Below are positions 4,168 through 23,677 of a stretch of 24,711 bases of DNA, piece after piece. The stretch is from a virus. The position numbers and the translations under genes are program-made. The stretch covers positions 1 through 24,711 of IMG/VR virus record IMGVR_UViG_3300012000_000120. One strand, 5' to 3'. Position 1 is the stretch's first letter, and every line of letters starts with the position of its first letter. The notes below the pieces were generated by a model, which was not told where the DNA came from, ran no database searches, and saw nothing but the letters and a program-made list of their open reading frames with translations.

Positions 4168-4622
4168 AGCTTTTCTTTGATTGTTTTCTCGTCCCAGCCC
4201 ATATCTCTGGCCAATTTTTTAACCACCTCGATGTCATTGATAGATGAAATCAGGTCTAATTCTTGATCGTTAAAATGCGGGTAAAGTTCAGCAAAAAATG
4301 TTCGAGTCTTTGATTCTTTGATTTTTTTCCCCGGAGCGATCCAATTATGTTTAAATGTACCCATGCCCGGACTCACTGTGGTGCACAATAACCACTGTAA
4401 TTTAGGATGTCGGCCCAGTGAAAAAAAGTCTTTGTTTAATCTTTCATTCAATGATAATAGATAATATTTTTGTATGTCAGTGCTGGCATCAACAGTGCTA
4501 CCCCACCTGATCATAAGATAATTGCTAAATTTTTTACGTTCTTCTGTGGTCAAATTGTCGTAGAAATTTCTATTTTTACGATCGAATTCTCGCATTTTAT
4601 TATTGATATTAAGTTTTTCCAT
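4164..4622 (-). CDS. Unknown phage protein, possibly replisome-related
   Basis: A 152-residue protein. The ATG at 4622 is preferred over a TTG two codons upstream because it forms a TAATG junction with the preceding gene. Visible features are LTTEERKKFSNYLMIRW near residue 30, LNERLNKDFF and HPKLQWLL in the middle, a VSPGMG...KHNWI segment, and a C-terminal LARDMGWDEKTI that looks like a small helix-turn-helix. The order of hydrophobic helices loosely resembles T4 gp62, the clamp loader small subunit, but I cannot show homology and gp44 is not in this window. Function unassigned. Confidence 0.6.
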   Translation of the reverse strand: MEKLNINNKMREFDRKNRNFYDNLTTEERKKFSNYLMIRWGSTVDASTDIQKYYLLSLNERLNKDFFSLGRHPKLQWLLCTTVSPGMGTFKHNWIAPGKKIKESKTRTFFAELYPHFNDQELDLISSINDIEVVKKLARDMGWDEKTIKEKL

Positions 4623-5131
4623 TACCAAGATTTTCCAAAATCAACAATTTCACTGAGCCGACTGATATCTTTGACAAAAAAAGCACACAATGGACTTTGA
4701 GACTCAGAATCAATTGGTACTGCCAACAATTGACCGGGTCTGAGCTTGGGAAAATACCATTTGACATCTTGATAGATGTCTACTATTTCTACTGCATGGA
4801 ATTCCGGTCGATAACTTTTCAGCGGATTAAAACAAAATGCACTGAAACCTCGATCATTGATACTGGTCAATGGCACAACTTCTAGATCTCCCAAATCGGG
4901 TTCGCCAATGAGCAATTGCCAATCCACTGGCATTTTTACTGTGTTCTCTCCTATGCGTAAGACCAGTGCTGGACTATTAAAACTTTCTAGAAATATCAAA
5001 GGAATAAAGTAATAGTCTGGCGCCTTTGGATCCGAGTTGTCTAACACACAGAATCGAAGATCTTCAATTTCGTCAGGTATCTCATTGAGATCATATGCTC
5101 TGTTGGTTTCAAGGTTTAGTATTCTACTCAT
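4622..5131 (-). CDS. Conserved phage protein downstream of uvsW
   Basis: A 169-residue protein beginning MSRILNLE. A longer frame reaches 5236, but that would overlap uvsW by 98 nt. The ATG at 5131 lies 7 nt after the uvsW stop and exactly 6 nt after a near-consensus -10 box, so it is the better start. No Shine-Dalgarno is visible. Segments such as CFNPLKSYRPEF, DVKWYFPKLRPGQLLAVP and CAFFVKDISRL suggest a compact alpha/beta protein. I recall similar proteins beside uvsW in aquatic T4-like phages, always without function. It seems to have its own leaderless transcript as well as read-through from uvsW. Confidence 0.7.
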   Translation of the reverse strand: MSRILNLETNRAYDLNEIPDEIEDLRFCVLDNSDPKAPDYYFIPLIFLESFNSPALVLRIGENTVKMPVDWQLLIGEPDLGDLEVVPLTSINDRGFSAFCFNPLKSYRPEFHAVEIVDIYQDVKWYFPKLRPGQLLAVPIDSESQSPLCAFFVKDISRLSEIVDFGKSW

Positions 5132-5167: not shown

Positions 5168-6596
5168 ATGGATATTCGGCCTCTCTATAAAAATTTTTAC
5201 GTTGTGCGAGGTGGCGCCGGGCAAATTTGCAGCCACTGGTTATATCCCAAATTTGTACAAAGTCTTTGTCATCTGCTTTTCTAATTCCGCGCCCAATACT
5301 TTGGATAACACGTACAAAGCTCTTGCCAGGCTCAATTAGTACAAGGTTAAAAATACGAGGTATATTAATACCAACAGCCGCTACACCGTAAGTGGCCACA
5401 ATCACTTTGTCTGTGGACGTGGCCACTTCATCGTATTCTTCTTGCCGGTTGACGTTTTTGGTGGCGCCTGATACAAACACCGCATCCCTGATTCGACCGA
5501 TCAGGGCCTGGCCTGCGGCCACGCGGTCTATCAGGATCAGAGTATTGCCGGATTCACGAATTCGTTCTATTAGTGCACCAATATAATCTAGTCGTTGAGT
5601 ATTCTCTAATAGATATTTGAGTTCGCTTTGATAGTTGGCGAATTCCTTATGATCAGCCAGCTGTATAATATTTACATGGCACCTGGCCAGTACACCCTGT
5701 TGTTGTAAATCACTGGCATTGAGCTCGCCGATTACCGGTCCGATCATGCAGGTCAGAGCCAGCCTATTATAGTCCTCTTTGGGTATGGTGCCGGTCAACC
5801 CCCATCGAATGGGCACCTGACTCATGGCTCCACTCAACAGTGAGCGTAGTGCATCGGCCTTGACCATGTGTACCTCATCGACAATGACACAGACTACATC
5901 CTCAATAAATTCACCAATTGAAATATCAGTGTTGCCCGACTTGGTATTTTTAAGCAGTACATTAAGACTCTGCCAGGTACAGATCGTGTGCCGATGCCCT
6001 AGATCTTTACGGTCACCAAAGTATACACCGACATCTAGGCCTAGATTCACATAATCCTGTAGGGTCTGCGTGACCAGACTTTTATTGGGCACTATGATAA
6101 TGCTGCGACCATAGGATTCTACGCAATAGCTGAGAGAGGCAGTCATAATGGTCTTGCCCGATCCCGTGGCCACTGTCTGTATACACTGTGGATTAGATAA
6201 AAATTTATTGACAATTTCAATTTGATAGTCACGCAAGACAATGGCCTGACCCTGACAGGGATGATTTGGTGGCCATTGTCTGCAACTGAATGTGTTATCA
6301 TCCACTGCGGGAAATTTAAAATTAGTACAATAGGATCTGGTATCAGTGATTTCAATATCATACCCGTGTTCTTCGATAACAGGAATGATATCTGGCAGCA
6401 AATTGATGTAGGTAGATCCAGACAAACTAAAATAACTGACTTTGCCGTCCCAACGGCCTAGTCGCACACTAGGCAAATATCTAGCCCCGGGTACTTCAAA
6501 CTTAAATCGGTTAGTCAGTGCCCTTCTCAGATTAACGTCAAGTCCTAGAATTCGAACATTGACTTCATCGTGTATGTGCAACTGGCATTCAAGCAT
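5139..6596 (-). CDS. uvsW: UvsW-type SF2 DNA helicase
   Basis: A 485-residue superfamily 2 helicase. In T4, UvsW unwinds branched DNA and R-loops, helps strand exchange with UvsX and shifts replication from origin-dependent to recombination-dependent mode. Residues 1-100 form the small N-terminal domain (RLGRWDGKVSYF). The motor follows: LRDYQ at 121-125, Walker A ATGSGKT at 143-149, DEVH at 240-243, LTGT at 267-270, IVATYGVAAVGIN at 399-411, and motif VI QSIGRGIRK at 432-440. The length is close to T4 UvsW. The start overlaps the upstream gene by 8 nt, indicating coupled translation. An internal promoter near the stop serves the next gene. All motor motifs look intact. Confidence 0.95.
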   Translation of the reverse strand: MLECQLHIHDEVNVRILGLDVNLRRALTNRFKFEVPGARYLPSVRLGRWDGKVSYFSLSGSTYINLLPDIIPVIEEHGYDIEITDTRSYCTNFKFPAVDDNTFSCRQWPPNHPCQGQAIVLRDYQIEIVNKFLSNPQCIQTVATGSGKTIMTASLSYCVESYGRSIIIVPNKSLVTQTLQDYVNLGLDVGVYFGDRKDLGHRHTICTWQSLNVLLKNTKSGNTDISIGEFIEDVVCVIVDEVHMVKADALRSLLSGAMSQVPIRWGLTGTIPKEDYNRLALTCMIGPVIGELNASDLQQQGVLARCHVNIIQLADHKEFANYQSELKYLLENTQRLDYIGALIERIRESGNTLILIDRVAAGQALIGRIRDAVFVSGATKNVNRQEEYDEVATSTDKVIVATYGVAAVGINIPRIFNLVLIEPGKSFVRVIQSIGRGIRKADDKDFVQIWDITSGCKFARRHLAQRKNFYREAEYPFDIERVNYI

Positions 6597-7692
6597 CTTG
6601 ACCTATTTGTTGTATAAAATAAACTACTTTATCGGAGCATTGTAACATATGCTGCCTACGATTTCCTATCAATACTACATGTGTGGTCACCAATAATTTC
6701 ATATGATCGGGCGCCAACTTCCAATGATCCAAGTACACTATTTTTCCAGTCACTGATTCCTTGGGATTTAATTTCTTTTCAATTATATGATCGCTATCAA
6801 AATATTTGTCTAGATTTTTTCTTAAAATTTGAGTTCCAGATTCATAGACATATATGGGCCATCTATTGGTCAATTCTGCGTAATTGACCAAATCAGCAAG
6901 ATCTAATTCTGACTCATGATATTTTACGTCTATAGTCCGATCAAGAAAAAATTTTTTGACACCGCTGGGCAACTGTACAGGCAATTGAGTAAAAATATCA
7001 GGGTCAACCGAATATCCGCAGATTCCCGAAAGATCAATTAGTTTCAACGAATTATCAATACCAAACCCACCATTGCAGTTAATATAGTCAATGAGACTGG
7101 ACTCGGCATTTTTGATTTCAAAATAGTTATTATTCAATTTGAGACCGATGCCATAATCTTCTTGATCAAGCACAATACCCAAAATTCTATTGAATTCTTT
7201 TCCAAACTCAAAATTATATTTAGTTCCAAATTCTTTGGCCCAGATTAGTCTAGGCTCTATCACTTTGGCTGTCCAACAACCGCGGATTCGATCAAATGCC
7301 AAATTGCCAGGCACTGTGTTTATTGCTGCTCTAATATTATTAATTTGGTCTTGGTTATAAGGAAATCTGATTTCAATTTGGTCATCGATGACATCAATGA
7401 GCTGTCTGCGATCAATTATTCTAATAGGTAACCGATATCTGGGAGTACTGTCCAAATGATTTATTTCATAGCCTTTAATTGCCCACTGTCGGCGATATTT
7501 GATTACTATTTTATGAGCCAAAGCTGCCTGACGATCAGTGAAACCATTTCCGCGTTGTATTTGATCAAGCATACTATTGACAATAGGTTCATCGTATCTA
7601 GCAAGTTTTATAATTGGCTCAGAGGGTGGCCAAACCAATTGGTCGGTGGCCATTAATGCAATATAATCCTCTATATAGGGCAACTGTTTCAT
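6589..7692 (-). CDS. UvsW-coupled protein with HARP-like segment
   Basis: A 367-residue protein starting at ATG 7692. An upstream ATG at 7710 would lie inside the promoter, upstream of the expected transcript start, so it is rejected. Residues about 107-155 (IRFPYNQDQINNIRAA...FD..RGCWTA) resemble the HARP domain that SMARCAL1-type annealing helicases use to grip branched DNA. The C-terminal third has Rossmann-like strands (KIVYLDHWKL, LLVTTHVVLIGN) but no ATPase motif. It overlaps uvsW by 8 nt. A substrate-targeting partner for UvsW on forks or R-loops is a reasonable inference, not shown. It has its own terminator-promoter junction upstream. Confidence 0.6.
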   Translation of the reverse strand: MKQLPYIEDYIALMATDQLVWPPSEPIIKLARYDEPIVNSMLDQIQRGNGFTDRQAALAHKIVIKYRRQWAIKGYEINHLDSTPRYRLPIRIIDRRQLIDVIDDQIEIRFPYNQDQINNIRAAINTVPGNLAFDRIRGCWTAKVIEPRLIWAKEFGTKYNFEFGKEFNRILGIVLDQEDYGIGLKLNNNYFEIKNAESSLIDYINCNGGFGIDNSLKLIDLSGICGYSVDPDIFTQLPVQLPSGVKKFFLDRTIDVKYHESELDLADLVNYAELTNRWPIYVYESGTQILRKNLDKYFDSDHIIEKKLNPKESVTGKIVYLDHWKLAPDHMKLLVTTHVVLIGNRRQHMLQCSDKVVYFIQQIGQDA

Positions 7693-7698
7693 CAAATT

Positions 7699-7726
7699 AG
7701 TATAGCACATTATTTTATAAAGTCAA
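7699..7726 (-). promoter_or_regulatory. Sigma-70-type promoter before the HARP-like gene and uvsW
   Basis: TTGACT (7721-7726), a 16-nt spacer and TATACT (7699-7704) on the minus strand. The -10 ends 6 nt before the ATG at 7692, the same spacing as at 5131, predicting a leaderless transcript. The -35 box is joined to the U-tract of the preceding terminator. Confidence 0.8.
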
Positions 7727-7772: not shown

Positions 7773-8297
7773 TTACAGATCAATGTCTGTCTTTTTCTTC
7801 TTTTCTCGGTCAATGACTTGTTGTAGGATTTGTTCTACTAATTTATTGAGTGTGATGTCCCGCTCGTGTGCCAGTTGCATAAGACGAAATATCTCTGCTT
7901 CCTCTAAGTCCAATGGAACGAGAACACGAGTGTCGTAGTCCTGACCCTGAAAGATTGCCTGAGCTTTGTCAAACCAATCATCCTCAGTGTCCAAGTCAGT
8001 GAAGCTGACATCGTCCCAGGCTTGGTCACGATACTCGGGTTCACCGCAGGCACGATAAGGATCTCTGCAGCCCGGAGCAAAATAACGATAGGCTCGGTTA
8101 TTACGGTAGTCGCAGGCTTCTAATACCTTGACATCAAATGTACGCAGGTCAACAATGGCCTGTAGGCTGTAGGTATCGTTGTCCTGATCCCAGTTGCTAA
8201 AGTAGTAGGCAGTGTCGCCAAAGCAAGTCCAGGTAAACCGATCTACTTCGGTTAAACGATAATCAACAAGTTCACAATAACGATTAAACAGTTGCAT
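7773..8297 (-). CDS. Conserved phage protein with ribbon-helix-helix-like C-terminus
   Basis: A 174-residue acidic protein. The first 115 residues are rich in aromatic and acidic residues (YYFSNWDQDNDTY, YRYFAPGCRDPYR). Residues about 127-165 (VPLDLEEAEIFRLMQLAHER and DITLNKLVEQIL) have the pattern of a short strand followed by two helices, as in ribbon-helix-helix DNA-binding proteins. The tail is lysine-rich. A good Shine-Dalgarno (GGAG, 6 nt before ATG) is present. It is the last gene before the terminator. It could be an autoregulator of the early operon, but homology is not established. Confidence 0.7.
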   Translation of the reverse strand: MQLFNRYCELVDYRLTEVDRFTWTCFGDTAYYFSNWDQDNDTYSLQAIVDLRTFDVKVLEACDYRNNRAYRYFAPGCRDPYRACGEPEYRDQAWDDVSFTDLDTEDDWFDKAQAIFQGQDYDTRVLVPLDLEEAEIFRLMQLAHERDITLNKLVEQILQQVIDREKKKKTDIDL

Positions 8298-22108: not shown

Positions 22109-23677
22109 TTAGCTGACCATTATAAAGGGCATAGGCATTATAATATCATCTAAGGAATCTTTTAATTTATTATCTAAATCTGGATCAAAGGTTTTTAGAA
22201 ACTGTATCATACGAACTGCCAGCAGTAAGCTGGTAACCAAATCGTCGTTTTCTCCAGGCTTTGCCGCAAAACTACCACCGACTGCTACAAAATTCTTTAG
22301 TTCGCTAATCAAATTTTTACTGGTCAGAATCATTTTTCCTGTTTCAATCATGGATTTCAACTTGGCACAGGCAGCTAGTTTACTCTTATTGGTGGTGAGA
22401 AAACCTTTTCTATATCTCCGACCTTGGCCGGATTGTTTGGGCTCACTGAGGAATATTCCCGGAATATTTTCTTCGCCAATTTCGTCTATGGACATTAGCG
22501 CGGCTTCACCAATGGTGTTATTTTCTACACTATAATAAATATCGTTCTGTGTACCAATTAGTTCGAAAATACAAGCACATATTTCTTTGATTATTTTAAT
22601 TTGCCCGGGCACCGGAGTTTTGTTGTGCTGCCATTCAGCAATTTGTCTACACTCCGGTAACTCAATGACCTGAACTCCTGCGTAGTCGCCACCGGTGCCC
22701 AAACTAGGATCTAGTGCTACCACATAGACTTTGCCTCGTTTTGGGCGATCATACCAACGAATTTGTCCTTGCCGCTCAACAGGATCAATGCCCTCTAGCG
22801 TGATTAATGTTGTACTATTGATTAGGGTTTCGTCGTAGATCAAAAACTCGCAGTCCATTTCTCGCCGGAATCTTTCTACGCCAATTCGACCTTGTTCTTG
22901 TGCTGCCCACTGTTCGTTGCGTTCTGGATGCTCATTCCAATAACTGCGATAGGACTTAAATCCGTTTATACCAACGGCAGTGGCATTGCCATATTCGTCG
23001 ATACACCGGTTGGCGCCTTTCCAAATTTCTGCAAATTGATCTTCGTCGCTGTTAGGGGTACTGGTAATAATAGCTTTACCTCCGGTACTGAGTGTGGGAC
23101 TTATAGACACCCAAAATTCTTTAGCAATCGTAGGCCTAACATAGGCAAACTCATCGGCATAGAGCAAGGATATACTCATACCACGACCGGTAGTTTCGGT
23201 TGTAGTTTGACTAACTATGCGGCTTCCATTGTCAAATTCTATGCTGCCTTTGTTGTATGTTGTTACCCCGGCTCTGATATGGTCTGGACAGTTTTCATAA
23301 GCAAAACTTACACGTTTCATGATTTCTTGAGCGCCGGTATACTTGTGTGCAGCAACTAACACTGTACTGTCCGGAATAAACATAGCAAACCAAAGTAGAT
23401 ATCCGGCAGCACTTGTGGTTTTACCAGATTGTCTAGGCATCAGGCTAATGCTAAAACGGTACTTATGATAGGTATCAATTAACCTGTTTTGGTAATCATA
23501 CGGTTGGTAAAGAATTCGCCCTTGTGTCGGATGCTGTATCCAAAAAAAGTGATTCAAAAAATAACTGGGCCCGGTGTCGGGGTTGACGCAAGCCACAAAT
23601 TCTTTGATCTGCTGATCAGTAAAAACCTCTCTGGTATGAGGTTTTTTGATCAATGTGTAATCCATTGGCTTGCTCAT
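22109..23677 (-). CDS. 17: Large terminase subunit (gp17 type)
   Basis: A 522-residue packaging motor, shorter than T4 gp17 (610). It cuts concatemeric DNA and pumps it into the prohead. ATPase domain: Walker A variant MPRQSGKT at 80-87, Walker B LLYADE at 171-176 with catalytic E176, and coupling motif TSTP at 205-208. RNase H-like nuclease domain: D323 in ALDPSLGTGGDYAG, E385 in YSVENN, and D478/D479 in KPGENDDLVTS. All key residues are present. ATG at 23677 is used; M5 is a less likely alternative. A 29-nt gap separates it from the upstream 88-residue gene. No small terminase (gp16) is recognisable here. Confidence 0.96.
   Translation of the reverse strand: MSKPMDYTLIKKPHTREVFTDQQIKEFVACVNPDTGPSYFLNHFFWIQHPTQGRILYQPYDYQNRLIDTYHKYRFSISLMPRQSGKTTSAAGYLLWFAMFIPDSTVLVAAHKYTGAQEIMKRVSFAYENCPDHIRAGVTTYNKGSIEFDNGSRIVSQTTTETTGRGMSISLLYADEFAYVRPTIAKEFWVSISPTLSTGGKAIITSTPNSDEDQFAEIWKGANRCIDEYGNATAVGINGFKSYRSYWNEHPERNEQWAAQEQGRIGVERFRREMDCEFLIYDETLINSTTLITLEGIDPVERQGQIRWYDRPKRGKVYVVALDPSLGTGGDYAGVQVIELPECRQIAEWQHNKTPVPGQIKIIKEICACIFELIGTQNDIYYSVENNTIGEAALMSIDEIGEENIPGIFLSEPKQSGQGRRYRKGFLTTNKSKLAACAKLKSMIETGKMILTSKNLISELKNFVAVGGSFAAKPGENDDLVTSLLLAVRMIQFLKTFDPDLDNKLKDSLDDIIMPMPFIMVS

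Follow-up and report, generated by a model that had tools for sequence, protein, structure and literature searches.

A leaderless-type layout of promoter and start codon conserved at genes beside uvsW in relatives of T4-like jumbo phages

Background

How might a phage gene be expressed if the -10 box of its promoter stands so near the start codon that the transcript would have no leader? The question arises from a virus record of 24,711 bases, which was analysed over its whole length and is called the window here, and in which the two genes that flank the gene for a UvsW-like helicase, designated Y367 and P169, each begin with an ATG six nucleotides after the -10 box of a sigma-70-type promoter (Table 1). 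Transcription usually starts 7 nt after the -10 box, so that in this arrangement the RNA should begin on the A of the start codon. The window also encodes a UvsX-like recombinase, a single-strand DNA binding protein and a T4-type large terminase, and the closest UvsW proteins of cultured phages are those of the jumbo phages Phosso (52%), Atu_ph07 (51%) and the PA5oct group (49%).

Table 1. Features of the Y367-uvsW-P169 region of the window
Feature	Position	Strand	Remarks
174-aa ORF	7773-8297		upstream transcript that the terminator at 7751-7730 would close
Terminator-like hairpin GAGTGCCC-TTAAAT-GGGCACTT	7751-7730	minus	8 pairs, 5 of them GC; T-run continues into the -35 box
-35 box TTGACT	7726-7721	minus	upstream of Y367; TTGAC at the same place in L001, L002 and L003
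Promoter spacer, 16 nt	7720-7705	minus	3' end TGC = extended -10 'TGn'
Upstream in-frame ATG	7710-7708	minus	within the promoter spacer; not the Y367 start codon
-10 box TATACT	7704-7699	minus	Y367 promoter, TGC just before
Discriminator AATTTG, 6 nt	7698-7693	minus	between TATACT and the Y367 ATG
Y367 start codon ATG	7692-7690	minus	predicted transcript start is the A at 7692
Y367 ORF, 367 aa, MKQLPYIEDYI...	6589-7692	minus	leaderless-type start
UvsW-like DNA helicase, 485 aa	5139-6596	minus	phrog_16, E 9.6e-74; P169 promoter in its 3' end
-35 box TTGACA	5167-5162	minus	in the uvsW end; promoter matches 12/12
-10 box TATAAT	5143-5138	minus	18 nt after TTGACA; overlaps the uvsW stop codon
Discriminator AATCAT, 6 nt, then ATG	ATG 5131-5129	minus	P169 start
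P169 ORF, 169 aa, MSRILNL...	4622-5131	minus	phrog_11279, unknown function; leaderless-type start

The promoter and start codon of Y367

A preliminary description of this DNA, made from its letters, had read the Y367 upstream region as TTGACT, 16 nt, TATACT and 6 nt to the ATG at 7692, with another ATG, at 7710, inside the spacer, and had noted a second case with the same distance from -10 box to ATG. The first reading holds base by base, and the equal 6-nt spacing was found at both ATG 7692 and ATG 5131. The boxes of the Y367 promoter, whose activity is a prediction, agree with the consensus at 10 of 12 positions, and with a spacer of 16 nt and a TG ahead of the -10 box they have the form of a sigma-70 promoter (TTGACA-like and TATAAT-like boxes 16 to 18 nt apart). 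The GC-rich hairpin upstream, followed by a T-run, likewise has the form of an intrinsic terminator. In T4 late promoters TATAAATA replaces the -10 box and there is no -35 box, and in T4 middle promoters a MotA box about 30 bp upstream replaces the -35 box. Neither class describes the window sites, which carry TATACT or TATAAT together with a clear -35 box and have TTGAC at the -35 position (judged by eye against the MotA motif). Rfam and tRNA searches of the window gave no match.

The program that listed reading frames had opened this gene at 7710, as an ORF of 373 aa and hence six codons longer than the one that starts at 7692. Conservation of the intervening residues had been named as one observation that would overturn the shorter version; among the relatives these residues are not conserved, and protein similarity in the family begins at the equivalent of ATG 7692. 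The start at 7710 is rejected on these grounds, and the annotated start of Y367 would be corrected to 7692. In one relative (L001) a stop closes the reading frame a few codons before the Y367 ATG, and in another (L003) an upstream ATG is absent; among 104 distinct Y367 upstream regions, an in-frame upstream ATG is present in only 6 and an in-frame stop within 17 codons in 83.

To how many starts in the window this spacing applies was scored with a strict rule (at most one mismatch per box and two in total, spacer 16 to 18 nt), by which 2 of the 26 listed minus-strand ATG gene starts have a promoter at exactly 6 nt. Over 3000 dinucleotide-preserving shuffles of the 60-nt upstream regions of these starts the mean was 0.005 and none of the 3000 reached two; for distances of 5 to 8 nt the mean was 0.019 and one of the 3000 did so. 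Elsewhere on the minus strand, at 23677, the ATG of the terminase gene stands immediately next to a TATAAT hexamer, with 0 nt between them, and at that distance the hexamer cannot serve this ATG as a promoter. Between about 500 and 1940 the reading frames of the window are highly repetitive (PVAPVAPV in the plus frames) and suggest a putative collagen-like Gly-X-Y protein on the minus strand.

The Y367 protein belongs to no Pfam or PHROG family at E 0.001; the best hint is to phrog_21015 (unknown function), with E 0.0002 at best and for 6 of 9 members. A tblastn search of 50,697 phage records gave no match, one distant relative was found by profile in a piece of Phosso, a marine Y367 protein used as query matched only two copies of itself, and a scan of genome contigs for a host found no match to Y367. 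The structural model is of moderate quality (pLDDT 82.7, pTM 0.50). Its residues 240-367 align with the RecA-like lobe of SF2 helicases (VIA Z up to 9.5 over 127 residues; Foldseek E 4.4e-4), a hint that the C-terminal part of Y367 may weakly resemble such a lobe. Judged from the model, Y367 could be an inactive partner of the adjacent UvsW-like helicase.

Conservation of the layout in the Y367 family

Proteins related to Y367 are found in many uncultured phages akin to the T4-like jumbo phages. Three relatives, L001 to L003 (L001 and L002 being nearly the same sequence), are 46-47% identical to Y367 and present a terminator, TTGACT growing out of the T-run, 17 nt, TATAAT, 6 nt and the ATG. 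A wider sample came from a UvsW-based scan, the best 80 of at least 600, which together with L001 to L003 and the window makes 84 sources. Y367 is present in 63 of these and could be scored in 56, since 7 lacked a start; the promoter's -10 box lies 6 nt before the ATG in 34, at 5 nt in 10, at 7 nt in 2 and at 8 and 12 nt in one each, a -10 box alone is found at 6 nt in 3 and at 14 nt in one, and 4 have no box. A scan with a Y367 profile, from which the best 80 of 373 relatives were taken, partly on contigs shared with the UvsW-based set, allowed 76 of the 80 to be scored: 44 at 6 nt, 6 at 5 nt, 5 at 7 nt, one each at 8 and 4 nt, a -10 box alone elsewhere in 6 and no box in 13. A -10 box taken by itself lies at 6 nt in 37 of the 66 distinct upstream regions of this profile set, as compared with 0.7 after shuffling. 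The layout extends to two very distant marine relatives, the contigs L210 and L211, whose Y367 was recognized by profile at E 9.7e-26 and 2.1e-18, and both of which have TATAAT-6-ATG.

When the two protein-based retrievals were pooled into 104 distinct upstream regions and scored with a relaxed -10 rule, the distance was 6 nt in 65, 5 nt in 15, 7 nt in 6, 8 nt in 2 and otherwise in 3, with no promoter call in 13; 86 of the 104 thus fall at 5 to 7 nt. Shuffles gave about 0.7 at 6 nt and 91.3 without a call, so that the enrichment at the exact position is about 90-fold. Where the spacing is 5 nt (15/104) or 7 nt (6/104), the predicted transcript start could miss the A by one base. A T-run with a hairpin of at least 6 pairs precedes the -35 box in 69 of the 104, and the T-run overlaps that box in 59; the module usual for Y367 consists of an intrinsic terminator, with a T-run that enters the -35 box, followed by the -10 box, 6 nt and the ATG. 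A word resembling a Shine-Dalgarno (SD) sequence occurs at 4 of 34 Y367 loci with 6-nt spacing, where it overlaps the -10 region and lies upstream of the predicted RNA start.

P169 downstream of uvsW

P169 was found in 83 of the 84 sources and scored in 80, as 3 were without a Met. The promoter's -10 box stands at 6 nt in 35, at 5 nt in 2, at 7 nt in 3, at 8 nt in 2 and at 2 nt in 4; a -10 box alone was seen in 4, and 30 have no box, 7 of them with an SD. For a few of these 30 boxless starts a downstream Met was probably taken as the start. To judge from their upstream regions, the Y367 (13/104) and P169 (30/80) starts without a promoter call must be expressed otherwise, several apparently by means of a Shine-Dalgarno or overlapping stops.

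In 76 loci uvsW could be placed and its distance to P169 measured. Members with the 6-nt spacing have gaps between the uvsW stop and the P169 ATG of 7, 12, 20, 24, 30, 31, 36, 39, 49, 752, 1195 and 1456 nt, from which it follows that the distance from -10 box to ATG is fixed and that everything upstream slides; where the gap is -4 to 3 nt, a promoter at 5 to 7 nt is absent. The P169 genes of L031, L042 and L078 apparently have as family start an ATT behind a good AAGGAG, about 36 nt upstream of the scored ATG, and AUU initiation of P169 is a possible reading of these relatives.

A P169 scan of genome contigs gave four contigs (JAFMJX010000205.1, PBPT01000016.1, PBPT01000082.1 and PAOW01000003.1), from bins named Chitinophagaceae, Neomarinimicrobiota and Euryarchaeota. 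The contigs carry phage genes and are most likely mis-binned phage DNA, and for this reason no host is claimed.

Two classes of promoter in related phages

The preliminary description had called for sigma-70 boxes in front of ATG codons of related phage genomes to be compared with shuffled controls, and the comparison returned a sharp peak at 6 nt. Over all ORF starts of the 84 sources, strong promoters at this distance number 65 as compared with 3.0 in shuffles. A further collection of 663 strong promoters (from the loci obtained through UvsW, from the window and six long contigs, and from parts of three cultured phages), with the distance taken to the first ATG at the head of an ORF of 60 codons or more, is bimodal: 57 have the ATG at 6 nt, none of the 57 with an SD, and 83 have it at 29-33 nt, 73 of them with an SD, while 383 have no such ATG. 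A control of 355 sites with reversed consensus was flat, with none at 6 nt. Start codons at 6 nt are ATG in 55 cases, GTG in 1, TTG in 2 and CTG in 1, and only ATG is enriched. A pyrimidine (C or T) precedes the ATG in 50 of 62 leaderless-type starts versus 52 of 123 leadered ones.

Not every 6-nt site is an independent case. A looser set of 88 such sites falls into 25 protein families, with sizes of 30, 28, 5 (UvsW itself) and 4 and with 21 singletons, so that two families dominate and many singletons may be due to chance; 58 of the 88 are relatives of Y367 or P169. Some sites look like 5'-terminal AUGs, as at G002 88515 and G008 188662, where the 6-nt ATG is placed ahead of an in-frame start with an SD of its own.

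The leadered class is itself patterned (T-A-T-A-G) at the bases 6-10 nt after the -10 box, and the +1 position was for that reason not argued from these bases. In the window at 10809-10749 on the minus strand (TATAAT-AATGG-TATAGT), and in leadered promoters of related contigs, the -10 box is followed at about 6 nt by a TATAG(T)-like sequence; in such SD-led promoters it is perhaps a tandem -10 box, and exact TATA[GA]T is present in only 11 of 123 leadered starts. A 343-kb contig (G002) repeats a promoter, TTGACCAGAAAT-CCATTT-TATAAT, for example at 986, 31888, 72031, 87305 and 215950, mostly with SD leaders and in a few cases with an ATG at 6 nt.

Cultured jumbo phages and uncultured contigs

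PA5oct, Munch, BF, CBB, Phosso and Atu_ph07 have a P169 homologue downstream of uvsW, as the window does. Unlike the window, however, Munch, BF and CBB have a clear SD before the P169 start, and the PA5oct start, a TTG, comes after a promoter-like TATAAT and an SD-bearing leader. These cultured relatives use a leader or an SD for P169, and the leaderless mode is consequently not universal.

Strong promoters with an ATG at 6 nt that opens an ORF of at least 40 codons were also counted record by record. Eight uncultured contigs have 22 of 361 (G001 4/35, G002 8/100, G003 0/57, G004 0/34, G005 1/12, G006 2/21, G008 4/57 and G009 3/45), as against 4 of 559 in three cultured phages (Fisher p 1.9e-6), namely PA5oct with 1/164 (280,000 of 286,783 bases scanned), Munch with 2/238 (340,000 of 350,103) and Atu_ph07 with 1/157 (400,000 of 490,380); as we read them, the 22 include 6 seed genes and at least 2 other sites that look like 5'-terminal AUGs before an in-frame SD-led start. 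Under the strict rule no such site was counted in G003 and G004, although weaker forms of the layout are present at their Y367 or P169 starts. In PA5oct (NC_071039.1) the exonuclease gene gp244, with its ATG at 158242, has TTGACA-17-TATAAT-7-ATG, and is a candidate for leaderless expression within a cultured jumbo phage.

A proposed mechanism and its alternatives

The explanation that we consider best for the Y367 site, with a probability of about 0.83, is that a sigma-70-type promoter gives rise to a leaderless mRNA, which is read by 5'-AUG-dependent initiation. Host RNA polymerase would use the promoter directly before Y367, starting 7 nt after the -10 box, and the intrinsic terminator upstream, its T-run doubling as the start of the -35 box, would end the previous transcript. 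The leaderless mRNA would then be read by a 70S ribosome, or by a 30S subunit with fMet-tRNA, and not by Shine-Dalgarno pairing. Such a compact module of terminator, promoter and leaderless start would make the Y367-uvsW unit an independent transcript, and another such promoter, lying within the end of uvsW, would drive P169. According to PMC9031893, 70S ribosomes read leaderless mRNAs from a 5' AUG, and in E. coli and Caulobacter other codons work poorly as leaderless starts; the latter fits the restriction to ATG at 6 nt. As for the proposal in the preliminary description of a leaderless mode around uvsW, it is the repetition of a leaderless-type layout there that is borne out, and the mode itself stands as a prediction from that layout.

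Promoter-like boxes are common in AT-rich DNA, and between 4600 and 20700 of the window they number 61 versus 42.6 in shuffles, which means that many single matches are due to chance. As an account of the Y367 promoter, chance is nevertheless rejected with next to no probability left to it, being refuted by the enrichment in the Y367 family, the excess over all ORF starts and the failure of any of the 3000 window shuffles to yield two 6-nt sites. It is very unlikely, too, that the promoter is real and the mRNA that is translated has a leader, acquired by read-through or from an upstream promoter, with initiation at 7710, 7692 or further downstream. The presence of an ATG at 7710, of an SD-like GAGG before a later Met codon and of a P169 that follows uvsW by 7 nt and could be coupled to it would agree with such a leader, but a terminator separates Y367 from the preceding gene, relatives do not conserve the residues that follow 7710, not all of them have the Met at residue 14 and 6 nt leave no room for an SD.

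Two further possibilities concern the reason for the layout. Compaction might have left a space between terminator and ATG too short for a leader, in the absence of any selection for leaderless translation, and the frequency of the hairpin with T-run before Y367, the overlap of the T-run with the -35 box and the location of the P169 promoter inside the uvsW end in loci with the shortest gap (7 nt) are all in keeping with this. The 6 nt are kept, however, at the three longest gaps between uvsW and P169, where a leader could fit, and compaction predicts neither one exact distance nor a restriction to ATG; we regard it as doubtful. The remaining explanation, possible but held only tentatively, accepts the leaderless starts and ascribes them to hosts that commonly use leaderless mRNAs, as do Deinococcus, Actinobacteria and Caulobacter, the phage promoters simply following the habit of the host. 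It draws support from Deinococcus, in which the same -10 motif is reported 6-7 bp before ORFs in nearly one third of genes (PMC12340547), and from the hosts of the cultured relatives with SD leaders, which are Pseudomonas, Salmonella, Serratia and Pectobacterium. Against this, the same phages hold the larger promoter class at 29-33 nt with a clear SD, GTG, unlike in mycobacteria or Streptomyces, is not used at 6 nt, and the arrangement goes with certain gene families in phages that are very distant from one another and probably have different hosts.

The preliminary description had offered the conjecture that the leaderless mode is perhaps used when infection alters ribosomes or initiation factors. 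That the genes of the uvsW region (Y367, P169 and, in some phages, uvsW) are under strict selection for a dedicated second expression mode, with synthesis rising as infection alters the ribosome pool (more free 70S, less IF3, an altered 16S 3' end) in a switch from SD-led to leaderless translation, seems unlikely.

Relationship to known leaderless systems

The closest parallel in geometry is that of the Deinococcus-Thermus leaderless genes, for which a -10 hexamer 6-7 bp ahead of the start, the absence of an SD and a transcript assumed to be without a 5' UTR are described (PMC12340547), much as in the window. Those are cellular genes, genome-wide, whereas the present cases are viral and confined to a few gene families, and here, unlike in that account, a canonical -35 box and a fused terminator are present in genomes that are otherwise SD-led. 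The leaderless mRNA of phage lambda cI (PMC9031893) likewise comes from a phage gene served by host sigma-70 polymerase (as predicted here). The cI case is a single regulatory gene of a temperate phage, with PRM as its promoter, in contrast to genes beside a recombination helicase, in relatives of T4-like jumbo phages, conserved over wide distances. E. coli mRNAs with SD leaders can also carry 5'-terminal AUGs (PMC4965119), which resemble the present sites in having an AUG at the transcript 5' end (predicted here) and differ in that this AUG precedes a leadered gene and is not, as here, the family's own start codon. A remark made in passing in PMC5312081 holds that transcripts of phages "are often leaderless". 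Searches of the open-access PMC library found no paper in which a leaderless layout specific to certain genes is described as conserved within a group of phages. Both the geometry and leaderless phage mRNA were known beforehand, and what would appear to be new is the conserved, gene-specific layout in phages.

Leaderless translation has usually been described as a cellular oddity or as the property of a single phage repressor. Here, in a group of viruses, certain genes retain a leaderless-type start across great sequence distances, beside a normal class of SD-led genes in the same genomes. The group offers a natural and replicated setting in which to study the purpose of leaderless translation and in which a rare mode of initiation can be tested in viruses, and the layout of a -10 box, 6 nt and an ATG provides a simple signature for the annotation of such genes.
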